Below are positions 3,391 to 39,329 of a stretch of DNA of 39,329 nt, piece after piece. Below the pieces are notes generated by a model that had not been told where the DNA came from, made no database searches, and worked only from the letters and a program-made list of their open reading frames with translations. How positions within the stretch are numbered: the stretch's first letter is position 1; every line of letters starts with the position of its first letter. Both the position numbers and the translations under genes were made by a program. Origin of the DNA: an uncultured Hyphomicrobiales bacterium. GTDB taxonomy: Bacteria; Pseudomonadota; Alphaproteobacteria; Rhizobiales; Beijerinckiaceae. The stretch covers positions 1 through 39,329 of the forward strand of contig CAIUPE010000149.1 of the NCBI GenBank assembly GCA_903900975.1, written 5' to 3'.

Positions 3391-4563
3391 TTAAGCGGCT
3401 TTAACAAGGCCTGCTTTGGCGGTCGCATAGGCCCATTCGATCCAAGGCATCAACGCCACGACATCGCTGGTTTCAACCGTTGCTCCGCACCAGATCCGAA
3501 GGCCAGGAGGCGCATCGCGGTAGGAGCCTAGATCAAGGCCGACGCCTTCCTTTTCAAGCAAATTTGCCACCGTCTTGGCAAAATTCGCCTGCTCGTCTGC
3601 CGACAGCACCGCAATGGCCGGATTGGAGAACACAAGGCATACGCTGGTGTTGGAACGCGTCGCCGGGTCTTTCGCGAGAAAATCGAGAAACGGCTTTTGT
3701 GCTACAAAATCAGCCACTGCTTTGGCGTTTGCATCGCACCGCGCCATTAGGCCTTTGAGGCTGCCAACCGACTGCGCCCATTCAAGCGCGTCGATGTAAT
3801 CCTCAACGCAGAGCATGGAGGGCGTGTTGATCGTCTCGCCCGCAAAAATGCCCTCGATGAGTTTACCACCCGATGTTAAGCGGAAAATTTTCGGCAGCGG
3901 CCAAGCGGGCGTGTAGCTCTCCAACCGCTCAACGGCGCGGGGCGAAAGGATCAGCATGCCGTGGGCCGCTTCCCCGCCCAGCACCTTCTGCCAGGAATAG
4001 GTGACGATATCGAGCTTTGGCCAATCCAAATCCTGCGCGAAGGCAGCAGAAGTAGCATCGCAAAAGGTCAGGCCCTTGCGGTCCGCTGCAATCCAATCGG
4101 CATTGGGCACACGCACGCCGGAGGTGGTGCCGTTCCAAGTGAACAGCACATCGTGGTCGGGGTTAACGGCGGCTAAATCAGGTAAAGCGCCATAAGGTGC
4201 CTTCATGGCGCGGGCATCTTTCGGCTTCAATTGCTTGAGTGCATCATTCACCCAGCCTTCGCCAAAGCTTTCCCAGGCGAGACAATCAACCGGGCGCGCG
4301 CCCAGCATCGTCCACATCGCCATCTCGTAAGCGCCCGTATCAGAAGCGGGCACGATGCCAATGCGGTAATCCGCAGGCACCTGTAAAATCTCGCGGGTTA
4401 AATCGATCGCCCGTTTCAAACGCGCTTTGCCCGCCTTCGCACGATGCGAACGGCCAAGGGGAGCTGCTTTGAGGGCGTCGGGGGTCCAGCCGGGGCGCTT
4501 GGCGCATGGGCCGGAAGAGAATTGCGGATTAGCCGGCCGCAAGCCGGGCAGAGTCTGTGTCAT
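3391..4563 (-). CDS. serC: Phosphoserine aminotransferase
   Basis: A PLP enzyme that converts 3-phosphohydroxypyruvate and glutamate to O-phosphoserine and 2-oxoglutarate, the second step of serine synthesis. From the chosen ATG it has 390 residues. The N-terminal [12 protein letters not shown] block and the [15 protein letters not shown] block identify the SerC subtype typical of alphaproteobacteria and methanogens; the lysine in SWQK (about K193) forms the Schiff base with PLP. The ATG at 4561-4563 was preferred over the upstream GTG (4579-4581) because GGAG lies 8 bases before it and the product then starts [15 protein letters not shown]. It lies upstream of serA on the same strand. Confidence 0.95.
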
Positions 4564-4803
4564 CGTTTTCTCCATCCTCACAGATGGGCGCCCCTCGTTG
4601 GGGAGAGGTGTCCCGTGGATGGAGATAGGCTGTGAAGCTTACGCCGTCAATCGGTAAATGTCGGAATGCGGATAAAAAGATTCGGGTAGGATTTAAAAGA
4701 ACGATCAAGATCGTCTTCTAAAATCGAGCAATCCCAACTAAAAAATTGACTTTCGGGCAGTTTTCTGTTTTTTTAGGACTTAATCGACGCGGCGAGGCTA
4801 AAA

Positions 4804-26576: not shown

Positions 26577-27053
26577 CTACCGTTTCTTCAATGCAATCCC
26601 TTGCCCGGCATCATCGGGCATCGGCAGCGCGGCGTGGTCTTGAGCAATGGCCTCAATCTGCTCCCGCACCCCTTCTGGAAAAGCAGCAATTTTCGGCCCC
26701 GACTGATCAACCGACGCCAATAATTGCTCGCACGTGGCCAGCAACGTGCCATCCGTCCCGTGGCGCAGCCATTGATAGAGGCGGATGCGCTTCGCATCCA
26801 TGTCCAAAATCTGGCCCGTCACCTTGAGAGCTGCGCCTTCCTTCACCTCCTGATGATAGCGCATCTGCATAGCGAGGGTAAAAATCGTGTGGTTGGTCGC
26901 AACCCGCCCCGCTTCATCAAGGCCAACCGTGCCCATAAAGGCATCGATCGCCCGTGAGAACGGGATTGCATAGGCCGCATCGTTCATATGGCCGTTATAA
27001 TCGACCCAATCGGGTAGAACGGTTGCGTCGTAAAGATGGAGGGGAGCTGTCAT
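26577..27053 (-). CDS. Hotdog-fold thioesterase, probable betainyl-CoA thioesterase
   Basis: 158 residues. DYNGHMNDAAY at 18-28 is the conserved helix start of 4-hydroxybenzoyl-CoA/YbgC-like thioesterases, with a central block MRYHQEVKEGAALKVTGQILDMDAKRIRLYQWL. Its ATG shares one base with the stop of the carnitine dehydrogenase gene (TAATG), so the two are translationally coupled. In Pseudomonas a thioesterase beside carnitine dehydrogenase hydrolyses betainyl-CoA to glycine betaine, and in several rhizobia the same domain is fused to the dehydrogenase (established knowledge, from memory). The specific substrate here is inferred from context. A second thioesterase of the same type lies at 35323-35886. 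Confidence 0.85.
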   Translation of the reverse strand: MTAPLHLYDATVLPDWVDYNGHMNDAAYAIPFSRAIDAFMGTVGLDEAGRVATNHTIFTLAMQMRYHQEVKEGAALKVTGQILDMDAKRIRLYQWLRHGTDGTLLATCEQLLASVDQSGPKIAAFPEGVREQIEAIAQDHAALPMPDDAGQGIALKKR

Positions 27054-28015
27054 TAGATGTGATCCGGGCGGCCTTCCGCCTCTGGCCAGTAGTTTTTCAC
27101 GAGCTTCAAAAGGTCATTCAGGAAGGCATCGCGGCGGCGCTCCAATTCCTTCACCGAGCGACCATCGGCCTGATGTTCGCAGCCGTCGACAATCTTGTCG
27201 ATGATCTCGTCGGTCAGCTCCGGTGCGGGCGTATAGGAATAAGGCATTTTCAGCGCCGGGCCGAACTGGTGCATGAAATGCCGCATTCCGGCATCGCCGC
27301 CAGCCAGCTGGAAGGTGAGGAACGTCCCCATCAAAGACCAGCGCAGACCGCAGCCATACACAACTGCCGCGTCGATTTCCTCGGTGGTGGCGACATCTTC
27401 CTTGATCAGCCACAGCGCCTCGCGCCAGAGCGCTTCCATCAACCGATCGGCGATAAAGCCTTCGATTTCCTTTCGCACATGCAGCGGGCGCATACCGATG
27501 CGGCGATAAAACGCCTTGGCGGCCTCAACCGAGGCTGGCGAAGTCTTCACCCCGGCCACGATCTCGACGAGGGGCAGCAAATAGACCGGATTAAACGGAT
27601 GGCCCACGACGATGCGATCTGGATTTTTGCACAGCGATTGCAGGCTGGTCGGCAATAGATAAGAGGTCGAGGAGGCAATTACGACACCGGGCTTGGCCGC
27701 AGCATCAATCCCGGCGAGAAGCTTTTGCTTCAATTCTTCGCGTTCCGGCGCGTTTTCCTGCACGAAATCAGCGTCTTTCACCGCATCCGCCACCGAGGCC
27801 ATAAAGGTCAGGCGCGACTGGCTGGCACCGGGCGCAAGGCCCGCCGTCTCGAGCGCAGGCCAGGCATTGGCTACCGCCGCACGGATTTTGGCTTCGCCAT
27901 CAGGGGCCGGATCAAACGCCAACACATCAATGCCATGGGCCAGACAACGCGCCGCCCAGCCGGAGCCGATAACGCCCGAACCGATAATGGCGACCTTTTG
28001 GATGGATGAGGACAT
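27053..28015 (-). CDS. lcdH: L-carnitine 3-dehydrogenase
   Basis: Oxidises L-carnitine to 3-dehydrocarnitine with NAD+. The 320 residues belong to the 3-hydroxyacyl-CoA dehydrogenase superfamily, with NAD-binding IGSGVIGSGW (11-20), the catalytic His in VVGHPFNPVYLLPLVEIV (H139) and the dimer-domain helix GFIADRLMEALWREALWLI. That combination and the 320-residue size are those of the non-fused carnitine dehydrogenases. A coupled thioesterase and a BKACE gene in the same cluster support carnitine as substrate over a CoA ester. It is divergent from the EamA transporter gene. Confidence 0.93.
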   Translation of the reverse strand: MSSSIQKVAIIGSGVIGSGWAARCLAHGIDVLAFDPAPDGEAKIRAAVANAWPALETAGLAPGASQSRLTFMASVADAVKDADFVQENAPEREELKQKLLAGIDAAAKPGVVIASSTSYLLPTSLQSLCKNPDRIVVGHPFNPVYLLPLVEIVAGVKTSPASVEAAKAFYRRIGMRPLHVRKEIEGFIADRLMEALWREALWLIKEDVATTEEIDAAVVYGCGLRWSLMGTFLTFQLAGGDAGMRHFMHQFGPALKMPYSYTPAPELTDEIIDKIVDGCEHQADGRSVKELERRRDAFLNDLLKLVKNYWPEAEGRPDHI

Positions 28016-28246
28016 GACTTAAGTGCTCCCTGAATCTGATACAGCTAACTCCCAATAGAGCCGAAAGCGGGCAGAAGCGAAAGTCCCAGTCCGACCGCGA
28101 ATAGACGCCCTGCGACAGGTTGTCCCCCAAAGACCTCATGTCGCGGCGAAGCGCAGGCATGTCTTTTTAGCGCACGCCATGAGCAGACGACTCACGTTAG
28201 GGTTAAACCATGCTGTCCCCCGACAATGCCCACAAAGGTTGCCTCC

Positions 28247-29158
28247 ATGTCCGCGTTAGCTGAAACGGCCCAAGAGCTTGCCCACCGCAAAGCCCGCAGC
28301 AAGCGTTGGCGTGGCATCACCTATGTCGCGATTGCGGCATTGATGTGGAGCACCGCGGGCATTTGGGTGCGGTATCTGACGCTTGATATCTGGACCATCC
28401 AAGCCGGTCGCGCGCTATGCGGTTCGCTCTCGCTGTTCGTCTATCTCTTGTTTAGCGAACGTCGCGCGATCGCTTCCACCTTCGGTACCATTAATTTGGC
28501 GGGCTATATTGTTGTGCCCATCAATGCGCTGGGCATGGCCGCCTATATGATGGCGCTGAACTGGACCACCGTTGCAGATGTGATGATCGTCTACACCACA
28601 CTACCCTTCGTGGTGGCCCTTGTCGGCTGGATCTGGATGCGCGAACGCGTCAAAATGCGCACGATGTTTGCCAGTGCCATCGCCCTTTCGGGTGTAACGT
28701 TTATGGTGGGCGGCTCATATCAGACCGGCACCGTGAAGGGGGATTTAGCCGCCTTTGTGATGGTGGTGAGTTTTGCGGGCCTCGTTATTCTCTCGCGCCG
28801 CTATCCCAAAATGTCGATGCCGGCCCATTCAATTTTGTCAGGACTTGTCTGCTTTGCGGTGGCTTGGCCGATGGCCAATTTTTCGACTTTAACGCTGAAC
28901 GATGCCCTTTTACTGCTGATTTTAGGCTCGATCACCATTGGCGTCGCAAACGTGTTGTATATGCGGGGTGTGGCGCTGATCCCCCCCGCCGAAGCGGGCC
29001 TGATTGGATTGCTCGACACCATCATCGCACCCATCTGGGTGTTTTGGATCTTCAACGAACGTCCCGCTGACGGTGCCCTGATCGGAGGCCTTATTGTTTT
29101 GGCAGCGGTGGTGTTTCAGATTTTGGGCGAGGGCAAAGCCGTTGGAAGTAGGGATTAG
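28247..29158 (+). CDS. EamA/DMT-family transporter
   Basis: 303 residues with ten predicted membrane helices in two EamA repeats (about 26-155 and 165-300). The first repeat contains YVAIAALMWSTAGIWVRYLTLDIW and YMMALNWTTVADVMIVYTTLPFVVALVGWIWMRERV; the second contains LYMRGVALIPPAEAGLIGLLDTIIAPIWVFWIFNERP. Such proteins move small metabolites, often outward; the substrate is unknown. ATG 28247 with AAAGG about 8 bases before it was preferred to ATG 28226. It lies inside the carnitine cluster and is divergent from lcdH. The stop codon lies inside a G-rich heptad repeat. Confidence 0.88.
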   Translation: MSALAETAQELAHRKARSKRWRGITYVAIAALMWSTAGIWVRYLTLDIWTIQAGRALCGSLSLFVYLLFSERRAIASTFGTINLAGYIVVPINALGMAAYMMALNWTTVADVMIVYTTLPFVVALVGWIWMRERVKMRTMFASAIALSGVTFMVGGSYQTGTVKGDLAAFVMVVSFAGLVILSRRYPKMSMPAHSILSGLVCFAVAWPMANFSTLTLNDALLLLILGSITIGVANVLYMRGVALIPPAEAGLIGLLDTIIAPIWVFWIFNERPADGALIGGLIVLAAVVFQILGEGKAVGSRD

Positions 29159-29232
29159 GGATTAGGGCGTAGGGCGTAAGAAAAATATTTCACCCGCTAA
29201 AATCGACACCCTACACCCTACACCCTACACCC
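29151..29232. repeat. Telomere-like heptad repeat with G-quadruplex motifs on both strands
   Basis: On the plus strand 29151-29174 reads four GGG tracts spaced by exactly four bases (ATTA, ATTA, CGTA). At 29209-29232 four CCC tracts are spaced by TACA, giving GGG-TGTA x3-GGG on the minus strand. The two arms are imperfect inverted copies with a 7-base period and a 34-base spacer, so a long stem or two G-quadruplexes could form. The EamA stop codon lies in the left arm and the caiD stop abuts the right arm. Confidence 0.8.
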
Positions 29233-30018
29233 TCACTTGCCCTTCCACTCCGGCTTACGCTTCTCGGAGAAGGCCAAAGGCCCTTCAAGCGCATCTTCCG
29301 AGCGGATCATCGCGTCATAGGGGGGAATGGTGCCTGATCGCATCAGCGCATAGCCAGCCTTCACATCCAGCGGCAATGTCGCCTTGATCACAGCCTTGAT
29401 GGCTTTGAGCGCCAAAGGCGCATTGACCGCCACCGTTTGAGCGAGCGTGCGGGCTTCCGTCATCAGATCGGCTTTGGCAACCACTTTGTTCACAAGCCCC
29501 CACCGCAACGCCTCGTCAGCGCCCATGCGGCGGGCGGTCATCAGCATTTCCATCGCAATCGGAAGCGGCAAGCGCTTTGGCAGACGCAGCACACCACCAG
29601 CATCCGCCATAATGCCGAGCGTCACTTCGGTCAGCGCGAATTCCGCCGTATCGGCCGCCACGATGAGATCGGCGGCAAGCGCCAATTCAAATCCGCCGCC
29701 AAAGGCCAAACCATTGACCGCGGCGATTACCGGCTTATCGAGATCCCATAATTCGGTCAGGCCTGCAAAACCGCCGGGGCCGTGATCGGCATCGACCGCC
29801 TCGCCTTCCGCGCCCGCTTTCAAATCCCAACCGGCCGAGAAAAAGCGGCCCTCGCCACCCGTGAGAATGGCAACGGATAAAGTCGGATCATCGCGAAATT
29901 CCGCAAAGGCAGCATAAAGCGCTTGGCTTGTCGGTACATTGATTGCGTTGGCCTTTGGCCGATCCAGCGTGATTTCAAAAACCGCACCGTCGCGGCGTGT
30001 CGTTACAGGGAATGTCAT
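29233..30018 (-). CDS. caiD: Carnitinyl-CoA dehydratase / crotonobetainyl-CoA hydratase
   Basis: Reversibly hydrates crotonobetainyl-CoA to L-carnitinyl-CoA. The 261 residues of the crotonase family resemble E. coli CaiD closely as remembered: [79 protein letters not shown] and [15 protein letters not shown]. The catalytic Glu pair, E111 and E131, falls at the same numbers as in CaiD. Its ATG overlaps the stop of the acyl-CoA synthetase gene (ATGA), so both are made together. The assignment is stronger than a generic enoyl-CoA hydratase, both by motif and by context. Confidence 0.92.
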
Positions 30019-32072
30019 TGCGGTGCTCCATCAGCAAGGCGGATCATGGCGTCAACGGCCACCGCACCCTGTTCGAGAATCAGAATAGGATTGGCATCGA
30101 GTTCTAACAAATGATCCCGCTCGGCACTGGCATAGGCCGCAACCGCCATAATCGCGTCAATCGCCGCTGTGCGATCCCCCTTCGCCCGCCCGCGAAAGCC
30201 CGCAACCAGATGGGCGAGTTTCAATCCGTCAAAAGCACGCTCCACTTCCGCGCGGCTTGTGGGCAGCAGAACGGACGCGGCATCTTTTAATAGCTCCACC
30301 AGTATACCGCCTGAGCCAAAGGTCAAAGTCGGGCCAAACAGTGGGTCACGCGCCACGCCGACAATCATCTCAGCCACAACACCTGTCTGCATCGCCTCGA
30401 CCAACATCTGATCGGAAAGATGCGCCATAGCTTTTGCCGCCTCGATCGCCGATACACGATCCTTGAGGTTAAGCTTAACCGCGCCGGCTTCCGTCTTATG
30501 CGCAATCGTATCGGACACCGCTTTAACGACCACCGGATAGCCAATGGAATCCGCCGCATTGCCAACGTCTGACACAGTAACCACGCGGCTTTTCGGCACC
30601 ATTAGACCATGCTTGGCGAGCAATGCCTTGCCGGTGGGTTCATCCAGCATCCGAACCGCGCGACCAATCGCAGCCGCTCTTTGCAACGGCTCAGCCCTCG
30701 GCCTTGCCCGAACTGCGCCGATTTCGGCGGCAATACGGATGGCTTCCATACATTCACTAATGCCCTGCATCGGCGCAATATGCGACGCGATCATGCGGGC
30801 ACCCACCGACTCGGGCATGGATTCAGGCAGCGAGGACACCAGCGCCGCTTTGGCCCCTGTCGCCCTCTGTGCGGCTTCAAAAGCTTGCAACGTCACATCC
30901 CAACTTGAAGCATCGCATCGGTCGGCGCGGGGGAAATCAAGTACTAGCAGGTTCATTGCATAACCTGAGCCCAGCATCGCCGAAAACGTAGCGGTCGAGG
31001 CCTCCAGATTGCCCCAGATATAAGTGTGATAATCCAGCGGATTAGCGAGCGGAACTTTAGGGCCAAGCGCGTCAAACAGTTTGATTTCAGACGCTTTGGG
31101 CAGCGGCGGCGTGGGCAGGCCCGCATCAGAGGCGAGATCCGCCACCAATCCCGCTTCACCGCCCGAGCAGCTCATCGACGATACCGTATGGCCTGAAAGC
31201 GGCCCATGCACATGCAGCAATTTCAGCGTTTCGAGGAAGACGGACACATCTTTCGCCCGACCAATGCCGAAGCGGGCAAACAGCGCGTCAAACAAGGCAT
31301 CGGAACCGGCCAGCGACGAGGTGTGCGACATCGTCAAAGCGGCCCCCGCCTCCGAGCGGCCCGTTTTGATCGCCACAATCGGCACGCCCTTTTCAAGCGC
31401 GCGCAAGGCGGCTTTCGAGAACCGCTCGATATCGTCGAGGCCTTCAATATGCAATCCGATGGCAGTGACGCGGTCATCGTCAAGCAGCGTCTCGATCATC
31501 TCGCCGAGATCGCCCTTGGCCTTGTTGCCCGCCGAGATCAAATAGGCAATCGGCAGACTGCGCGCCTGCATCGTCAGGTTCAGCCCGATATTGCCCGATT
31601 GCGTGACAATCGCCACGCCGCGCTCAACCGCCAAGCCACCATGTTGATCGGGCCAGAGCGCTGCCCCGTCAAGATAATTCAGCAGGCCGTAACAATTCGG
31701 GCCAAGCAAAGCGAGATCACCGGAAACCGCCACCAATTGCGCCTGAAGCGCCGCACCCTCGGGCCCAACTTCGGCGAAGCCCGAGGCATAACACACCGCA
31801 CCCCCCGCCCCCATTTGAGCAAGAGCAGCCACCGCCTCAATCGTTGCCTCACGCGGCACGGCGATGAAGGCGGCATCCGGCACGCCCGGCAATGCAGCAA
31901 GCGATGCAAAGGTTTTGCGACCGGCAATCTCGGGGCGCTTCGGGTTAACCGGCCAGATATCGCCCGTAAAACCAATGCGCTCGCATTGACGGATCACTTC
32001 GGCGGCTTCCCTCCCCCCCATCACGACCAGGGAACGCGGCGACAGCAGACGGGCAAGATTGGAGCGGCTCAT
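30015..32072 (-). CDS. NDP-forming acyl-CoA synthetase (acetate-CoA ligase family), probable betaine-type acid:CoA ligase
   Basis: 685 residues with the alpha-beta fused layout: a CoA-binding Rossmann domain (about 1-135), succinyl-CoA-ligase-like flavodoxin domains (about 145-440, [26 protein letters not shown]) and a C-terminal ATP-grasp domain (about 480-685, [51 protein letters not shown]). The phosphate-carrying His is H250 in [10 protein letters not shown]. The family makes acyl-CoA from acid + CoA + ATP with ADP release and is reversible. Coupling to caiD implies gamma-butyrobetaine, crotonobetaine or carnitine as the acid; this is inference. It stands in place of AMP-forming CaiC and CoA-transferase CaiB. 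Confidence 0.88.
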
Positions 32073-32262
32073 AAGGGGTAATTCCCGAAAAGGACACTGG
32101 ATTAAACCAACTTACTATCGTCTCCCGCGGCGAAAAGCGATGCGTCCGAAGCGACGATCATACCGCCACGCGCGACACTTGGCCAAGCTAGCTTGCATCA
32201 ATTTCATACATGCCGTAACGTCATTTTTTAAATCTTAGCAGGCGGGCGGATCGTTTGGACGC

Positions 32263-33126
32263 ATGAAACTTCTGGTCGCGATACCGCATTACTTCAAGCC
32301 AAAGCCCAATTCACGACACTCTTCCACCGACGGCACGCGACGCGAGCAACGGATGAGGGCGATTAAAGATGTCATCCTAAGTTATCGCGGTCTATTCGGC
32401 GGCGCCTCCAAACTCAACATCAATACGCTGAAATTAGAGCCACATCTCGGCCCCGATATCGAGGTGCGGATCGTTGTTGTAGTGCAGGGCGACGATCATG
32501 TGCTTGATCGGGAATTTTGCAATCAGCATCAGGTTTCGGTAGCAAACGTCAAACTGGCTGATCCGAGGCTGTTAGGCTTCGCCGTTCAAAATCTATTGGC
32601 CGAGAACCGCTCACACTTCGATTATTTTGTGTTTTGCGAAGACGATTTGCGGATGCATGATCCACTGTTTTTCAGTAAGCTTGAGTGGTTCAATGCCTCA
32701 TTCGGATGGCAGAGGCTGTTAATGCCCAACCGGGTCGAATGGAACGCGCAAATCCCGACGGTGAAAACCTATATTGACGGCGATTTATTGCCAAAGCACG
32801 TCCAGCATTACCTTGATGCCCTGCCCGATGAAGCGTTTCTGAAAGCTACTGCCTTTTTGCATCCCCTCCGTTTTGAGCGCACGCGCAATCCGCATGCGGG
32901 CTTTTTCGCTTTGTCGTCTGATCAGATGCACTACTGGGTGCAACAACCTCATTTCGGCGACGGCGATTTGAGCTTTTTCACCCCGCTCGAAAGCTCGGCA
33001 ACGCTAGGTGTGATGAAGACTTTTCCGATTTACAAAGCGGCTGGAAGAGACGCCGGCTTTTTAGAGCTGGAACACCTTGATGACCGCTATTCGGTCTATG
33101 GTATTCCAGCGCCATCAAAGGCGTAA
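32263..33126 (+). CDS. Unknown protein, glycosyltransferase-like
   Basis: 287 residues starting MKLLVAIPHYFKPK, which looks like the first strand of a GT-A fold. FVFCEDDLRMHDP near residues 122-134 is a plausible DxD-type metal/nucleotide motif, and several His/Asp-rich stretches follow. No membrane segment or signal peptide is seen. I do not recognise a precise family; a family-2-like glycosyltransferase acting in the cytosol is the best guess. It is divergent from the acyl-CoA synthetase gene and has its own strong terminator, so it is probably unrelated to carnitine use. Confidence 0.55.
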   Translation: MKLLVAIPHYFKPKPNSRHSSTDGTRREQRMRAIKDVILSYRGLFGGASKLNINTLKLEPHLGPDIEVRIVVVVQGDDHVLDREFCNQHQVSVANVKLADPRLLGFAVQNLLAENRSHFDYFVFCEDDLRMHDPLFFSKLEWFNASFGWQRLLMPNRVEWNAQIPTVKTYIDGDLLPKHVQHYLDALPDEAFLKATAFLHPLRFERTRNPHAGFFALSSDQMHYWVQQPHFGDGDLSFFTPLESSATLGVMKTFPIYKAAGRDAGFLELEHLDDRYSVYGIPAPSKA

Positions 33127-33133
33127 ACAAAAT

Positions 33134-33190
33134 GGACCGCGAGCCTCCCGGCTCGCTTTTTAAGAATGCGAGCCGGAAGGCTCGCGGTCC
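33134..33190. terminator. 23-bp inverted repeat made of two nested hairpins (bidirectional terminator)
   Basis: Arms 33134-33156 and 33168-33190 are complementary at 22 of 23 positions around an 11-base T-rich spacer. Each arm is itself a hairpin, GCGAGCC-4 bases-GGCTCGC. The left hairpin is followed by TTTTT on the plus strand, an intrinsic terminator for the gene ending at 33126. The right arm can serve the convergent methyltransferase gene that ends at 33201. Confidence 0.8.
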
Positions 33191-33200
33191 TAGGCTTCCC

Positions 33201-34142
33201 TTATCGGCTTTTGCGGAACTCTTCCGCCGCCCGCACTGCTTCCTCAATATGCGGCAAACCCAACCCGCAGCAGCCGCCGAGCATCTGTACACCAGATGCC
33301 AGCCATTGCCGCGCAAACACGCCATATTCATGCGGTGGAATAATATCGACAAAGCGCCAGCCTGGCATTTCGAAATAACCTGAGTCGGGATAGGCCATCA
33401 GCGGGCCGTTGAAATGCTGCTTCAATTCTTCCAATGCCGTGCCAATGATCTCGGAGCCCGTGTGCATCAAACCTGCTGCATCAATGCCGGTCTTGGGAAT
33501 GAGAGACGCGATATCGCTAATCGGCAAATCATCGAAATGGTGGAAGCTGACCACCTTGCCCTCTTTGCTCCGCCGCGCGCTCATACCGAAAAAAACCGGC
33601 AGGCCGGTGGATGTCGCCGCTTCAACCGCGAGTTTCACCCGCGCGGGCTCATACATCATTTCCAGCATGATGAGTTCGGCACCCGCCTTTTTAGCAGTAT
33701 GCACGAGCGCATGAAATGCATCGCTGATTTCAGTCGACGACGGAATTTTCGCGGGATCGATCACCGCCGTTCCCGCCGACATCGGCACCATATGCGAGAG
33801 CGAAGCGGCAACCACCACCTCGGGCCGTCCCGATTGCGCGCGCGCTTTTAACGCCGCCTCAACCGCGCGCTCGATGATTTCTTCCGAGCGATCCGCAAGC
33901 CCCGCATCCTTCAGCATCAAACGCGAGGCCGCATAGGTGTTCGACGTCACGATATCCGATCCCGCGCGGATATAATCAGAATGAATCTCGGTCAGGATAT
34001 GATCGTTTTCAAGCGTCGCCGGGCCGCACCAACCGGCAGGATCCATCGGCGCGCCACGCCGTTCAAGCTCGGTGCCGGTCGCACCATCGAGAACGATGAT
34101 ATCGCCGTCGGCAAGACGCTGCTTCAGTTTGGCATAGGCCAT
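33201..34142 (-). CDS. Homocysteine S-methyltransferase family protein (probable betaine-homocysteine methyltransferase)
   Basis: 313 residues of the zinc-dependent (pfam02574-type) barrel: LDGATGTELERRG (substrate loop), SDIVTSNTYAASRLMLKDAG, ELIMLEMMYEPARVKLAVEAA and the C-terminal zinc pair GGCCG (C291, C292). At the position of the first zinc Cys in BHMT (the VNC block) this protein has GLMHTG, that is His227. Expected reaction: a methyl group from glycine betaine to homocysteine, giving dimethylglycine and methionine. ATG 34140-34142 with GAGGA 8 bases before it was chosen over the longer frame to 34259, which runs into the preceding gene. Context (carnitine to betaine) supports betaine as donor; the His ligand leaves room for another methyl donor. 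Confidence 0.85.
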   Translation of the reverse strand: MAYAKLKQRLADGDIIVLDGATGTELERRGAPMDPAGWCGPATLENDHILTEIHSDYIRAGSDIVTSNTYAASRLMLKDAGLADRSEEIIERAVEAALKARAQSGRPEVVVAASLSHMVPMSAGTAVIDPAKIPSSTEISDAFHALVHTAKKAGAELIMLEMMYEPARVKLAVEAATSTGLPVFFGMSARRSKEGKVVSFHHFDDLPISDIASLIPKTGIDAAGLMHTGSEIIGTALEELKQHFNGPLMAYPDSGYFEMPGWRFVDIIPPHEYGVFARQWLASGVQMLGGCCGLGLPHIEEAVRAAEEFRKSR

Positions 34143-34162
34143 CAGATGATCCTCAAAAAGGG

Positions 34163-35326
34163 TTAAGCGCCACGCGGGCGCAGCATCGCGCGGGAAATAA
34201 TGTGGCGCTGAATTTCGCTCGTCCCATCCCAGATGCGCTCGACACGGGCATCGCGCCACCAGCGTTCGATTTTCAACGACGACATCAAGCCCATACCGCC
34301 ATAAATCTGGATCGCTTTGTCGGTCACGCGCGCCAAGGTCTCGGACGCAAAAAGTTTCGCCATTGCAAAATCGGTATCGGTCGAAGTGCCCTTATCGAGC
34401 TTATCGGCTGCGGCCAATGTCAACAGATCCGATGCCTCGATCTCCGTCAGCATATCGGCCAATTGAAACGACACGCCCTGAAACTTGCCGATCACTTCGC
34501 CAAATTGCTTGCGTTGCGATGCCCAGTCGAGTGCCGATTCCAGCACGCGGCGCGAGCGGCCAACGCTGGTGGCGGCAACGGTAAGGCGCGTGGCGCCCAG
34601 CCATTCGCCCATCAATTCAAAGCCCTTATGCTCCTCACCCAGCAACTGGCTTTCGTGGACCACGCAATCGTCAAAAAACAATTCGCACTGGTGATAGCCC
34701 TTGTGCGACACGCAATGCGGCCCGCGTCGCATGGTGAAACCGGGCGTGCCCATATCCACAAGAAAGGCGCTGATCTTGGCCTTTTTGCCTTTCGACGTTT
34801 CTTCCATACCCGTCGCTGCCATCAAGATCACGAAATCGGATTTATCGGCATGGCTGATGAAATGCTTCGAGCCATTGATGACATAGGTGTCACCCTTTTT
34901 CTCGGCCTTCGTTTTCATCGAGCGAACATCGGAGCCTGCACCCGGCTCGGTCATCGCTAGGCAATCATGCCGCAAGCCCTTGATCGACGGTATGAGATAG
35001 CGCTCGATCTGATCACCCTTACAGCCCTGCAAAATATTCGACGGCCTCGCGATGCACATCTGCAAGCCATACGACGCCCGACCGAGCTCGCGCTCCAACA
35101 AGGTCAGCGAGAGATTGTCCAATCCTCCGCCGCCATATTGCTCCGGCATATTGGCGGCATAAAGCCCGAGCTCAATCGATTTTTTCTGGATTTCGGCTGC
35201 GAGATCAGCAGGCACATCATCGATTTCCTCGACCAGATCCTCATGCGGATACAGCTCGTTTTCGACAAAGGCGCGGACGGTATCCACCAGCATGCCCTGT
35301 TCTTCGGAAATCGGAAACCCGCTCAT
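34163..35326 (-). CDS. Acyl-CoA dehydrogenase, probable gamma-butyrobetainyl-CoA dehydrogenase (CaiA-like)
   Basis: 387-residue FAD acyl-CoA dehydrogenase: AMTEPGAGSDVRSMKTKAEK (flavin loop), FISHADKSDFVILMA, and YGGMGLMSSLKIERWWRDARVERIWDGTSEIQR at the C-terminus. The catalytic base, Glu in the YEGT motif of medium-chain enzymes, is Asp367 here (WDGT), and no alternative helix-G Glu is evident (GATRLTVAA). Its ATG overlaps the upstream thioesterase stop (ATGA). In this cluster it would oxidise butyrobetainyl-CoA to crotonobetainyl-CoA, feeding CaiD; that substrate is inferred. Confidence 0.85.
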   Translation of the reverse strand: MSGFPISEEQGMLVDTVRAFVENELYPHEDLVEEIDDVPADLAAEIQKKSIELGLYAANMPEQYGGGGLDNLSLTLLERELGRASYGLQMCIARPSNILQGCKGDQIERYLIPSIKGLRHDCLAMTEPGAGSDVRSMKTKAEKKGDTYVINGSKHFISHADKSDFVILMAATGMEETSKGKKAKISAFLVDMGTPGFTMRRGPHCVSHKGYHQCELFFDDCVVHESQLLGEEHKGFELMGEWLGATRLTVAATSVGRSRRVLESALDWASQRKQFGEVIGKFQGVSFQLADMLTEIEASDLLTLAAADKLDKGTSTDTDFAMAKLFASETLARVTDKAIQIYGGMGLMSSLKIERWWRDARVERIWDGTSEIQRHIISRAMLRPRGA

Positions 35327-35886
35327 GATGCTGTGCTTTCTTTACGCTTGATGCCCAACACCGTGCCCACCGTTTTAGGCTTAGGCAGAACCGAATGGGC
35401 TTTGAGAATGGCCGAAAGGCGATGAAACAAATCAGGCGGTAGGGGTGAGGATTTTCCCGCCTTCATATCAACATGCATCAGGAGCTGTTCGCCGGTCGCT
35501 AGCAGTTCACCGGTCGCCTCATCATGCACTTCGTGGAAAATATGCAGCCTTTTAGCGTCGAGATCGATAAGAGTCAGCGAAAAGCTCAGCCGGTCGCCCT
35601 CCGAGCATTCGCGGTAATTATGGATGCGCGTTTCGATCGTATAGAGCGACGAACCACCCGCCCGATACGCCTCATCAATACCGAAATAGCGGAAAAACGC
35701 ATCGGAATGATCGCCCATCACAAGCAAGTAAACGCTCTCGCTCATATGTCCGTTATAATCGGTCCATTCTGGCTTCACCGCACAGGAATGGAGCTTCAAC
35801 GGCGTCGGAATCGGCGCCGTTTCATCCCAGCCCTTGAAGGGAATGCCTTCATAGGGCGCAACAATGCGTTTAACTTCCGTTGTCAT
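35323..35886 (-). CDS. Second hotdog-fold thioesterase of the cluster
   Basis: 187 residues with WTDYNGHMSESVY (43-48 for DYNGHM) and the block IETRIHNYRECSEGDRLSFSLTLIDLDAKRLHIFHEV. It shares this design with the thioesterase at 26577-27053 but has an N-terminal extension of about 25 residues. It lies between the BKACE gene (4-base gap) and the acyl-CoA dehydrogenase gene (ATGA overlap), so it belongs to the same transcript. Likely substrates are betainyl-CoA, the BKACE product, or carnitinyl-CoA, the CaiD product; sequence alone does not decide. Confidence 0.85.
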   Translation of the reverse strand: MTTEVKRIVAPYEGIPFKGWDETAPIPTPLKLHSCAVKPEWTDYNGHMSESVYLLVMGDHSDAFFRYFGIDEAYRAGGSSLYTIETRIHNYRECSEGDRLSFSLTLIDLDAKRLHIFHEVHDEATGELLATGEQLLMHVDMKAGKSSPLPPDLFHRLSAILKAHSVLPKPKTVGTVLGIKRKESTAS

Positions 35887-35890
35887 CCGA

Positions 35891-36772
35891 TCAACGCTGC
35901 TTCTTCAGGCCAAGCTTGACGCGGGCTTCCGCTGGCGTCAGCGCACGGCCACCCATACGCTCAATAATTTCCTTGGCGCGGGTGACGAGCGAACCGTTGG
36001 TCGCATAAACACCCTTATCGAGCCAGATATTGTCTTCCAAACCAACGCGAACATTGCCACCAAGCAACACGGCTTGGGCGACAATCGCCATCTGGTTGCG
36101 GCCAATGGCAAAGCCAGCCCAGTTGCAATCCGGCGGCAAATGGTTGCGCATGGCGAGCATTGCCTCAGTCGTCGCTTCCGCGCCCCATGGAATACCGAGG
36201 CAAAGCTGGAACAAAGGCGGGTTATCAATCAGACCTTCCGCCATCAATTGCTTGGCGAGCCAGATATGGCCCAATTCAAACGCCTCAATCTCCGGCTTGA
36301 CGCCACAAGCTTGAATACGCTTGGCCATATCGCGCAACAGATCAGCGGTGGCCAAAAACGCGCCATTGCCGAAATTCAACGAGCCGCAATCCAGCGTGCA
36401 GATTTCCGGCAACAGCTCTTCGACATGGGCCACGCGCTCGGCAGCATCGGCAAGATCGGAGCCCGGACCGGGAATTCCGGGGTTTTTCGGGTCATAGGCG
36501 TAATCGCCACCCATACCGGCGGTCAGATTGATAACAACATCGACGCCTGATTCGCGGATCAGCTTCACGGCTTCGCGGTAATGGGCAATCTCGCGCCCTG
36601 CTTTGCCGGTCTCGATATTGCGGACATGAAGATGGGCAATCGCCGCACCTGCATGTGCTGCCTCGATAGCAGCGTCCGCAATCTGGCGTGGCGTCACAGG
36701 AATGGCCGGATGCTTGCCGACGGTGTCGCCAGCGCCCGTGACCGCGCAGCTGATGATGACTTCATTGTTCAT
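35891..36772 (-). CDS. BKACE-family enzyme, probable 3-dehydrocarnitine cleavage enzyme
   Basis: Beta-keto acid cleavage enzymes (DUF849) condense a beta-keto acid with acetyl-CoA to give acetoacetate and a new CoA ester. The 293 residues show the zinc His pair in AHLHVRN (H47, H49), the third ligand in VGLEDNIW (E246), and INLTAGMGG and CGSLNFGN substrate loops. With 3-dehydrocarnitine the products are betainyl-CoA and acetoacetate, as described for Pseudomonas CdhC-type enzymes (established knowledge). lcdH and thioesterases in the same cluster make this the best call. GGGGAAAACC precedes the ATG. Confidence 0.9.
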
Positions 36773-36927
36773 TGGTTTTCCCCATCCTTTGCAGGCATCT
36801 TCACAAAATCTGATCTGATGATACGGTTTTAATCGCCGCTGTCGATTGGCTTTGGCCGACCCTCCCGCGTCTTAATGCGACGGGCCGAGATTTATTGGCG
36901 ATATTTTAAGGCAAAGGGAGAGCAGAC

Positions 36928-37146
36928 ATGAGCCTGACCACGCAAGAGAAAAAAGGCCGCGACCGCCCTGTTACCTGCGAGCGCTGCGGCACCCCCTTCA
37001 CCTGTACTTTGGGCGGGCCATGCTGGTGCTCGGGCGAAGATTTCAAACTCCCCCTGCCGCCCCAAAGCGACACCAGCGATTGCTTATGCCCGTCCTGCTT
37101 GAAAGCCTATGCGGCAGAATTGCGGGCGGAGGGTAAGGGGCCATAG
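36928..37146 (+). CDS. Cysteine-rich CWC family protein
   Basis: 72 residues. CERCGTPFTCTLGGPCWC and CLCPSCLKAY give the eight-cysteine pattern of the small CWC family, probably binding zinc. GGGAGAG lies 8-10 bases before the ATG. Function unknown. It is divergent from the BKACE gene across a 155-base spacer that must hold both promoters. Confidence 0.85.
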   Translation: MSLTTQEKKGRDRPVTCERCGTPFTCTLGGPCWCSGEDFKLPLPPQSDTSDCLCPSCLKAYAAELRAEGKGP

Positions 37147-37190
37147 GCGCCAGTCAATCTGAATAAAGTAGCATTTAGCAACTTAAATAT

Positions 37191-37203
37191 TAGCATTATG
37201 CTA
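37191..37203. promoter_or_regulatory. Palindrome upstream of the XRE gene, operator candidate
   Basis: TAGCAT-T-ATGCTA is a perfect 13-base palindrome about 70 bases before the XRE start codon. A second TAGCATT half-site lies at 37169-37175. A 7-bp hairpin (37223-37229 with 37245-37251) follows in the leader. This layout fits autoregulation by the XRE protein. Confidence 0.4.
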
Positions 37204-37271
37204 TTGATGAAAGGAGCAAACGAGGGCATATTACGGCGCACAAAATGCCCTTAATCTAAGAGACAACCCTA

Positions 37272-37646
37272 ATGAACAAGCAGATCATCACCACGCCCAA
37301 GGGCGAACGTCTGGTTGTCCTGCCCGAGGCAGAATATGTGCGGCTGTTGGAAGCTCTTGAGGATATCGAAGACCAAAACGCCGTTCGCCAGTTCAAAGAG
37401 CGCCTTGCCGCAGGCGACGAGGAACTTTTACCTGCCGCCATGGTCGATGCGATTTTGGATGGCGAAAGCCGTGTTCGCGTCTGGCGCGAGCACCGCGGCC
37501 TTACTGCCGCAGCGCTTGCAAAAGCGGCGGGAATTGCCTCGCCCTATCTCTCCCAAATCGAAACGGGCAAGCGGGAAGGAACGGTTGAAACCTATCGCAA
37601 ATTGGCGATTGCGTTAGGCATTACGCTGGACGATTTACTCGGCTGA
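37272..37646 (+). CDS. XRE-family antitoxin-like regulator without an adjacent toxin
   Basis: 124 residues. The N-terminal part MNKQIITTPKGERLVVLPEAEYVRLLEALEDIED resembles the dimerising strand-helix of Phd/YefM-type antitoxins. The C-terminal part is a Cro/C1 HTH, VRVWREHRGLTAAALAKAAGIASPYLSQIETGKREGTVETYRKLAIALGITLDDLLG. Proteins of this design are often antitoxins paired with an upstream RelE toxin. Here the 125 bases upstream hold no toxin frame and downstream lies the convergent choV gene, so it may be an orphan that now acts only as a regulator. Confidence 0.8.
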   Translation: MNKQIITTPKGERLVVLPEAEYVRLLEALEDIEDQNAVRQFKERLAAGDEELLPAAMVDAILDGESRVRVWREHRGLTAAALAKAAGIASPYLSQIETGKREGTVETYRKLAIALGITLDDLLG

Positions 37647-38768
37647 TCAGTCCCGTTTCTCCCTTATCAAACCGCTATAAATATCCGCATCCGTGCAAAC
37701 ACCCACCAGACGGCCATCCTCATCCAAAATACCAACGCCATGACCGCTTTTTTGCCGGAGCGCGATAACATCCTTCAGCGTGGTTTGCGCGGAAGTCAGC
37801 TGGATAGCGCTACCCGCCTCGATCTGCGGTTTGCCTAGACCATCCAAGCGAAGCGCCGCTTGGCGTGAGACGTCCACAAACACGCGATCGCCTTCCCGTT
37901 CGCACTTGTTAAGCGGTCGCATCAGCGAGCCCGCTTTGAGCACGTTGAGCGGGTTCATATGGGCGACAAATTCCGCCACATAGGCGTTGGCGGGCTTGAG
38001 AATAATCTCCTCAGGTGTGCCCCATTGCACAATCCTCCCGCCTTCCATAATCGCGATGCGGTTGCCGATTTTCATTGCCTCATCAAGATCATGGCTGACG
38101 AAAAGGATGGTCTTTTTCAGATTCTTTTGCAGCGACAGCAGCTCGTCCTGCAATTTGGTGCGGATCAGCGGATCAAGCGCCGAGAAGGGCTCATCCATCA
38201 ACAAAAGCGAGGCATCGGTAGCAAAAGCACGCGCCAGACCCACGCGTTGCTGCATGCCGCCCGAAAGCTCGTGGCCATATTTATTGGCCCATTGATCAAG
38301 CTGAACCATTTTCAGCTTCTCATCCACAATCCGGTCACGCTCGGCTTTGGGCGTACCGCGTAGCTCTAGACCAAGGCCGACATTGTCGCGCACTGTCCGC
38401 CAGGGCAGTAACGCAAATTGCTGAAACACCATGGCGACGCTCTCGGTCCGCACCGCGCGCAAGGTCGCTGCGTCAATGGTGGCGATATCCACCATCTGCC
38501 CGCGATGGCGCAGCAAAACCTTACCGCGTGACACGCCATTCAACCCGTTGGCTGAGCGTAAAAGCGTCGATTTGCCGGAGCCCGAGAGGCCCATCAGCAC
38601 GCAGATTTCGCCCTCTTCAACCTGCAAAGAGGCATCGGCCACACCGATGACCGCGCTCGTGGCTTTCAAAATTTCGTCGCGCGTCTCGCCTTGATCCAGA
38701 CGTGTTAGCGCTTCTTTTTTAGCGCTACCGAAGACGATATCAACATGATCAAAAACAAGATGGCTCAT
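37647..38768 (-). CDS. choV: Choline/glycine betaine/carnitine ABC transporter ATPase (ChoV/ProV type)
   Basis: 373 residues from the ATG that overlaps the permease stop (ATGA). The N-terminal IVFGSAKKEALTRLDQGETRDEILKATSAVIGVADASLQV is the ChoV-type lead-in. Walker A GLSGSGKST (60-68), signature LSGGMQQR (168-175), Walker B LLLMDE (188-193) and switch His FVSHD follow. The C-terminus has a CBS-type region (about 300-373, GHGVGILDEDGRLVGVCTDADIYSG), which senses ionic strength in OpuA-like relatives. It imports quaternary amines with the permease. In this context butyrobetaine, carnitine or betaine are the likely cargo. Confidence 0.92.
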   Translation of the reverse strand: MSHLVFDHVDIVFGSAKKEALTRLDQGETRDEILKATSAVIGVADASLQVEEGEICVLMGLSGSGKSTLLRSANGLNGVSRGKVLLRHRGQMVDIATIDAATLRAVRTESVAMVFQQFALLPWRTVRDNVGLGLELRGTPKAERDRIVDEKLKMVQLDQWANKYGHELSGGMQQRVGLARAFATDASLLLMDEPFSALDPLIRTKLQDELLSLQKNLKKTILFVSHDLDEAMKIGNRIAIMEGGRIVQWGTPEEIILKPANAYVAEFVAHMNPLNVLKAGSLMRPLNKCEREGDRVFVDVSRQAALRLDGLGKPQIEAGSAIQLTSAQTTLKDVIALRQKSGHGVGILDEDGRLVGVCTDADIYSGLIREKRD

Positions 38769-39329
38769 GATGCGCGTCCGCTCGGTTTGCGCTCTGGCAA
38801 TTTGCACACGCGGTCCAAAATAATCGCTAGGATGACGATGGCTAATCCAGCCTCAAACCCCATGCCAATATTCACTGAATTCAACGCGCGCACCACCGGC
38901 TTGCCTAATCCGCCCGCGCCCACCAGCGCCGCAATCACCACCATCGACAGCGACAGCATGATGCATTGGGTGATCCCCGCCATGATCGTGGGTAGCGCGG
39001 AAGGTAACTCGATTTTCCATAGCAATTGGCGCTTGGTGGCGCCAAACGCCTCGCCCGCTTCAATCAGATGTTTCGGAACCGCCGAAATGCCGAGATGCGT
39101 CAGACGGATCGGCGCCGGAATGGCAAAAATCACCGTTGAGATCAACCCCGGCACTACGCCAAGACCGAACAGGATCAAGGTAGGAATAAGATAAACAAAG
39201 GTCGGGATCGTTTGCATTAAATCAAGAATAGGCCGCAAAATGGTAAACAGCATCGGCCGATGCGCCGCCGCAATGCCAATCGGCACGCCGATCACCACCG
39301 AGACAAAAGTGGCAGAAACAACAAGCGAG
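38765..39329 (-). CDS. choW: Quaternary-amine ABC transporter permease (ChoW/ProW type), 5' end cut by window
   Basis: At least 187 residues remain, starting inside the protein; the frame stays open to the window edge. Helices such as VVIGVPIGIAAA, ILDLMQTIPTFVYLIPTLILFGLGVVPGLISTVIFAIP and IMLSLSMVVIAALVGAGGLG are typical ProW segments, and EAGEAFGATKRQLLWKIELPSALP is the EAA loop that docks the ATPase. Its stop overlaps the choV ATG. The substrate-binding protein gene, usually first in choXWV order, would lie beyond 39329. Confidence 0.92.
   Translation of the reverse strand, partial: SLVVSATFVSVVIGVPIGIAAAHRPMLFTILRPILDLMQTIPTFVYLIPTLILFGLGVVPGLISTVIFAIPAPIRLTHLGISAVPKHLIEAGEAFGATKRQLLWKIELPSALPTIMAGITQCIMLSLSMVVIAALVGAGGLGKPVVRALNSVNIGMGFEAGLAIVILAIILDRVCKLPERKPSGRAS

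Follow-up and report, generated by a model that had tools for sequence, protein, structure and literature searches.

Gene content of the cluster and proposed pathway

The window analysed here is the entire contig CAIUPE010000149.1 (C149; 39,329 nucleotides) of an uncultured Hyphomicrobiales bacterium, one of the 153 contigs of a 2.9 Mb source assembly. Positions 26577–36772 hold a cluster of enzyme genes that, based on translated open reading frames (ORFs) and family scans (Pfam and NCBIfam), is predicted with a probability of roughly 0.8 to encode, in two modules, a CoA-dependent and probably aerobic pathway that degrades gamma-butyrobetaine and carnitine to glycine betaine. The gene content, the synteny, the co-occurrence of the genes and the clade structure of two thioesterases (TEs) are observed, and the substrates and reactions are predicted from them. 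Along the window, the cluster and the adjoining transporter genes are:

26577..27053, minus strand: TE1, a 4HBT_2 thioesterase of the CDH-linked clade; putative betainyl-CoA thioesterase
27053..28015, minus strand: CDH, L-carnitine dehydrogenase (NF005471, 466.6 bits; cut-off 414)
28226..29158, plus (opposite) strand: EamA/DMT-family transporter (PF00892, 81.2 bits)
29233..30018, minus strand: CaiD-like enoyl-CoA hydratase, putative crotonobetainyl-CoA hydratase (PRK03580, 381.8 bits; PF00378)
30015..32072, minus strand: the ligase, an ADP-forming-type acyl-CoA synthetase, putative gamma-butyrobetaine CoA ligase (CoA-binding, Succ_CoA_lig and ATP-grasp domains)
32263..33126, plus strand: 287-amino-acid ORF, an insertion with no Pfam or NCBIfam match
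33201..34142, minus strand: HMT, a His-type PF02574 homocysteine S-methyltransferase-like protein (PF02574, 143.6 bits; motif GLMH)
34163..35326, minus strand: ACAD, acyl-CoA dehydrogenase, putative gamma-butyrobetainyl-CoA dehydrogenase (family scans; acidic residue kept)
35323..35886, minus strand: TE2, a 4HBT_2 thioesterase of the ACAD-linked clade; putative carnitinyl-CoA thioesterase
35891..36772, minus strand: BKACE, putative dehydrocarnitine cleavage enzyme (PF05853, 314.7 bits, cut-off 24.8; nearest solved chain 3c6c, 307.8 bits)
37647..38768, minus strand: choV, ATPase of a choXWV choline-type transporter (TIGR03415, 533.4 bits; cut-off 483.75)
38765..39329, minus strand: choW permease, cut by the contig end (TIGR03416, 321.6 bits, cut-off 363; positions 94–267 of 267)

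TE2, ACAD, the ligase and CaiD are referred to as module A, and BKACE, CDH and TE1 as module B. All of the enzyme types named in the initial annotation of this stretch are present as intact ORFs with family matches, and the four start/stop overlaps it described as coupling neighbouring genes are confirmed by the ORF coordinates (TE1/CDH, 1 base; CaiD/ligase, 4; ACAD/TE2, 4; choV/choW, 4). The 352-amino-acid call for HMT is over-extended, and a start at the ATG at 34142 leaves a 20-base gap behind ACAD.

CDH passes the curated L-carnitine dehydrogenase model and, along with choV, is the only cluster gene to pass a curated NCBIfam equivalog cut-off. BKACE is a member of its Pfam family and matches four NCBIfam BKACE-type models, all below their cut-offs, and the best model for CaiD among 72 families is the crotonobetainyl-CoA hydratase PRK03580. 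The ligase is assigned to its class from its domains, with the ADP product itself predicted, and two conserved histidines to which we presume a functional role (His250 and His525) are invariant in all 11 aligned rows. At what we take to be the catalytic position of ACAD, 93 of the 94 covering rows have an acidic residue (61 Asp and 32 Glu), the sole row without one being a 32% paralogue. An unusual catalytic residue in ACAD was considered and rejected, since both Asp and Glu are common among the rows, and the residue is not a special feature of this protein.

In the proposed pathway, the ligase would convert gamma-butyrobetaine to gamma-butyrobetainyl-CoA, from which ACAD would form crotonobetainyl-CoA, to be hydrated by CaiD to carnitinyl-CoA and hydrolysed by TE2 to free carnitine. 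CDH would then yield 3-dehydrocarnitine, which BKACE is predicted to combine with acetyl-CoA, giving betainyl-CoA and acetoacetate, and TE1 would release betaine from its CoA ester. Betaine would be demethylated mainly by an MTTB/MtgD-like corrinoid system and dimethylglycine-dehydrogenase-like (DmgDH-like) enzymes encoded next door in congeners, and the PF02574 protein may pass some methyl groups to homocysteine. The cluster offers gene candidates for every step of butyrobetaine breakdown without an obligatory release of trimethylamine (TMA).

Conservation and co-occurrence of the two modules

Among 12 genomes of the genus, the ligase is present in nine at identities of at least 80% and BKACE in nine at at least 79% (three are partial matches), and the three fetched loci of the genus that cover the whole block (L037–L039) have an identical gene order. 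The core of the cluster is conserved across the order. Co-occurrence was assessed in the best 80 of at least 586 loci of ligase relatives, all in named genomes and including two from the same genus (L139, CAIRGA010000129.1; L140, CANGLU010000003.1, Hyphomicrobiales bacterium isolate Jr-7aug17-115), with a partner gene counted at ≥45% identity and ≥60% coverage. The controls were 20 loci around distant ligase paralogues (28–34% identity), taken in rank order with one neighbouring place omitted and from genomes other than the 80. ACAD, CaiD, CDH and BKACE were all present in 53 of the 80 ligase-anchored loci and in none of the controls, two sets that are unmatched in taxonomy; the controls held weak matches to single cluster genes (25–38%). 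For loci of at least 20 kb, all four partners were found in 41 of 56.

For the 27 incomplete loci, 19 whole genomes were searched (all but those of L139, L141, L146, L153, L157, L169, L173 and L209). CDH was found in 14 (≥41%) and BKACE in 13 (≥51%), with both in 13, two of which already had BKACE in the ligase locus. Rhizobia and other proteobacteria carry the block, and actinobacteria have it in two separate parts. A record of Sinorhizobium meliloti Ak57 has a GlxA regulator, BKACE, CDH, ACAD, a ligase match and caiD side by side, the ligase match being in two pieces at a place without a listed gene, and a plasmid of Rhizobium leguminosarum WSM1689 has BKACE, carnitine 3-dehydrogenase, acyl-CoA dehydrogenase, ligase and caiD likewise. 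Matches to the ligase at E ≤1e-100 occur in a total of 158 plasmid records, all at <60% identity.

Several results weigh against the assignment of module A to butyrobetaine. CaiD does not reach the cut-off of its best model (381.8 of 500 bits), and ACAD fails the CaiA model PRK03354 (crotonobetainyl-CoA reductase; 193.1 of 540 bits), which stands eight families down its list. In five of the 19 searched genomes, close matches to CDH and BKACE are missing. Four of them (two from Marinobacter, one from Colwellia and a Thiotrichaceae record) yield no relatives or only general ones, and the fifth, also from Marinobacter, has only distant counterparts of the two (37% and 34%); in these five genomes module A may act on something other than butyrobetaine. 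Further, the ligase was not found in the fragmented assemblies of two congeners (G001 and G011; loci L097 and L099). The low CaiD and ACAD scores and the five genomes would fit an alternative in which module A uses a different short acyl acid, leaving carnitine to CDH, BKACE and TE1 alone, but the four partners gather in 53 of 80 loci versus none of 20 controls, CaiD is closest to crotonobetainyl-CoA hydratase, and of the 19 searched genomes with a module A locus that missed CDH, BKACE or both, 13 have the pair; such a division of substrates appears unlikely.

A different order of ligase, CaiD and ACAD occurs in four loci, three from Marinobacter and one from Colwellia (L166, L180, L195 and L201). 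A partial BKACE, ACAD and methyltransferase are kept in G001 and G011.

Other routes for butyrobetaine were also considered. The gut enzyme BbuA is described as an acyl-CoA dehydrogenase-like protein with the same CoA ester, butyrobetainyl-CoA, as its substrate (PMC8364193), and an ACAD that eliminated TMA in the same manner would make the pathway a TMA-forming one. Loss of TMA would, however, leave CaiD, CDH and BKACE useless, and a CoA transferase is absent among the cluster genes scanned. The acidic residue at the presumed dehydrogenase position, kept in 93 of 94 rows (a comparison with BbuA itself outside it), also stands against this route, which is highly improbable. Hydroxylation of butyrobetaine to carnitine was rejected, with the TauD family (butyrobetaine dioxygenase) present in 0 of the 12 genus genomes; the earlier proposal of a beta-oxidation-like branch from butyrobetaine to carnitine joined to the carnitine-to-betaine branch is supported. 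The only PF00848 Rieske match in the genome is on contig C115, outside the window, and reaches 149.3 of 670 bits for GbcA with no CntA-named model among its five matches; both CntA and GbcA were rejected for this genome. The window is accordingly free of a CntA-type gene, as the initial annotation had it, though other TMA-forming enzymes were not searched for. On C115 (L219, 4214–6222), the Rieske oxygenase and a reductase form a pair that is only distantly GbcAB-like, beside an ORF read as P450-like.

The carnitine locus of Sinorhizobium and Rhizobium has the same enzyme set as the window, with BKACE, ACAD, ligase and CaiD in the same order. In that locus CDH lies between BKACE and ACAD, whereas in the window it lies behind CaiD with a detached TE1, and the window additionally has TE2 as a second thioesterase and the PF02574 insertion and lacks both the GlxA-type regulator and the adjacent oligopeptide-like ABC transporter of the rhizobial locus. 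S. meliloti SM2011_c01638 is described as acting on carnitine and betainyl-CoA (PMC12482172, citing Bazire et al. 2019). The rhizobial records hold the same set and the function of the S. meliloti dehydrogenase has been reported, so a route that joins the two branches is common and belongs to a known type; the view that their joining is unusual is not supported. Strain HK4, whose position is between Agrobacterium and Rhizobium, has a butyrobetaine pathway that is a near system, likened here by description. The Pseudomonas aeruginosa pathway shares CDH, BKACE, the removal of CoA and the conversion of carnitine to betaine, but as described (PMC12482172) begins at carnitine, and was likened by description rather than sequence. 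An island in Arctic SAR11, like the window, is described as bringing together CDH, BKACE, a thioesterase, choline dehydrogenase and ABC and DMT transporters (PMC12421898); it differs in having gamma-butyrobetaine dioxygenase genes, the family missing from the genus here. Among titles and the opening parts of abstracts, with subscription journals and patents outside the scope, there was no publication recognisable as describing such a cluster with an ADP-forming ligase, which is not proof of absence.

Phylogeny and linkage of the two thioesterases

TE1 and TE2 both match 4HBT_2, and both also align with the C-terminus of PRK07531, a model of the fused carnitine 3-dehydrogenase (123.2 bits for TE1). 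A tree of 66 rows, drawn from matches of at least 100 amino acids in the 80 ligase loci and six others (two rows of <110 amino acids were dropped), separates three clades. The clade with TE2 (22 rows; support 99/94) consists of TEs encoded directly upstream of ACAD in all 22 cases, none of them linked to CDH, while the clade with TE1 (19 rows; support 100/99) consists of detached TEs, 13 directly behind CDH and six elsewhere. A third clade (25 rows; support 96/82) holds TEs fused to or behind CDH, and a CDH–TE fusion is also seen in 10 of the CDH loci found by the genome searches. TE1 and TE2 fall in different clades, TE2 tied to the butyrobetaine module and TE1 to CDH.

Because of this clade linkage and of the arrangement in three actinobacterial genomes, where a separate TE lies behind a CDH encoded away from module A while module A has its own TE2, the linkage suggests that TE2 hydrolyses carnitinyl-CoA and TE1 betainyl-CoA, a testable division of labour. 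Four observations speak against this assignment: five of the 19 searched genomes have no close CDH and BKACE; the TE of L170, upstream of ACAD, groups within the CDH-fused clade; the actinobacterial TEs behind CDH stand outside the 66-row tree; and no more than 18 of the 80 loci have a TE2-type gene (17 placed in the TE2 clade and that of L139, too short for the tree), so that a dedicated carnitinyl-CoA thioesterase is not required everywhere. ADP-forming-type ligases are reversible in principle, and in loci without TE2 either a reversible ligase or a CDH-fused TE could carry out the carnitinyl-CoA step.

The PF02574 methyltransferase, transport and neighbouring genes

The initial annotation extended the pathway to methionine, with betaine as methyl donor for the homocysteine methyltransferase-like HMT. 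HMT belongs to PF02574, is found in its His-type form in nine of the 12 genus genomes and adjoins ACAD in all nine. Its position between ACAD and the ligase is shared by two of the 80 ligase loci, both from congeners, and the gene is missing from the other 78. Although 259 of the 385 genomes of the class have some match to HMT, these are mostly distant PF02574 relatives. HMT fails its three nearest models, the betaine-homocysteine methyltransferase (BHMT) model PRK07534 (84.4 of 338 bits), MmuM (111.2 of 215) and PRK08645 (130 of 453). Where MmuM and two MetH chains have a cysteine in what we take to be the first zinc-ligand motif, HMT has GLMH and no cysteine in the stretch. Its histidine stands opposite the motif cysteine in the MmuM alignment and in a MAFFT alignment with ten Cys-type rows (L077–L086); the alignment to MetH is ambiguous, with a gap or a methionine opposite the cysteine. 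HMT retains a DGATGTEL-type N-terminal stretch, a glutamate opposite that of MmuM and the GGCC motif, all three presumably with functional roles. In a tree of 49 rows, in which long branches were flagged, the 26 MH rows form one group on a weak edge (37/79), and the Cys-type group is supported (97/89).

Five relatives of HMT (50–58%) have no close cluster gene nearby, the best being a 35% CaiD match (L127), and 12 His-type neighbourhoods from elsewhere compared with a panel of cluster and betaine genes (ORFs read in seven of the 12) gave only transporter and weak matches, the latter to CaiD (35%, L127), ACAD (25%) and acyl-CoA synthetase (31%; both L130) and DmgDH (22%, L135). Rfam elements at HMT, a SAM riboswitch among them, were considered and rejected, the sole Rfam match in the window being a serC leader, and an Rfam scan of eight other His-type loci returned only tRNAs above threshold. 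A different gene of the genome, on contig C73, passes the BHMT model (483.7 versus 338 bits) and is accompanied by an MTTB gene and a corrinoid-activation-like gene.

That the cluster HMT is a betaine-homocysteine methyltransferase, and the whole cluster a butyrobetaine-to-methionine route, is favoured by its family, by its constant place beside ACAD and by the retained motifs. A Cys-type Bmt of Phaeobacter is described as making methionine directly from betaine in vitro (PMC12366255). Set against this are the missed BHMT model, the absent motif cysteine, the 78 loci without the gene, the His-type neighbourhoods elsewhere and the MTTB-type genes that adjoin the cluster in congeners. With the BHMT-passing gene located on C73, the methionine leg through the cluster HMT is a weak and doubtful proposal: a PF02574 gene is indeed present, but it misses the expected model and motif and is cluster-linked in this genus only. 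HMT may be a genus-specific addition that passes some betaine methyl groups to homocysteine, and within the searched material a link to methionine is confined to one genus. It is a more speculative and improbable idea that the two-module logic is general for quaternary amines, with a TE2 family accompanying the butyrobetaine module, a betainyl-CoA TE family accompanying CDH and, in TE2-less clusters, a ligase that recovers ATP from carnitinyl-CoA, and that the His-type PF02574 protein represents a novel methyltransferase with betaine or another quaternary amine of the pathway as methyl donor.

The more probable fate of betaine is suggested by the neighbouring genes. In congeners G004 and G007, the region past choW on the same contig encodes ChoX, the choline dehydrogenase betA, two MTTB, an acyl-CoA synthetase, a DmgDH-like protein, MTHFR, an MtgD-like protein and RACo, and both G004 and the source genome have an OYE gene. 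Contig C133 of the source genome begins matching G004 about 1.5 kb beyond the window end, so C133 likely adjoins C149; it encodes an MtgD-like protein, and MTTB is present in all 12 genus genomes. For the family scans of these neighbours, ChoX was taken from G007 and the remaining proteins from C133. Judging from these genes, the MTTB/MtgD-like corrinoid system and DmgDH-like enzymes most likely account for the bulk of betaine demethylation, and in congeners the cluster connects with corrinoid-type betaine demethylation. The neighbouring MTTB and MtgD-like genes of the congeners are reminiscent of MtgBCDE of Ruegeria pomeroyi, described for betaine demethylation and methionine synthesis (PMC12478193), though in the source assembly the MTTB and MtgD-like genes are on a contig other than that of the window.

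Import of butyrobetaine through choWV, as proposed initially, is doubtful and was set aside: choV passes the choXWV ATPase model, ChoX of G007 passes the choline model (485.3 versus 379.05 bits) and the transporter adjoins betA. The EamA transporter holds the same position in five loci of the genus (L037, L038, L039, L041 and L045). Near other such clusters, a DMT/EamA transporter is again present in G047 (27%), in the Rhizobium leguminosarum plasmid locus and in the published SAR11 island.

The plus strand between the cluster genes encodes, besides the EamA transporter, the family-less ORF, a CWC protein and an HTH protein. The family-less ORF, inserted between HMT and the ligase on the opposite strand, was present in only one of 20 loci compared (L037 of G004, 83%) and is not thought to be part of the pathway. 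Elsewhere in the window, the serC leader (4567–4618, minus strand; 61.3 bits, gathering threshold 35) lies at the start of a 396-amino-acid ORF (3391–4581) that matches no Pfam family at 1e-5 and is followed by a phosphoglycerate-dehydrogenase-like ORF.

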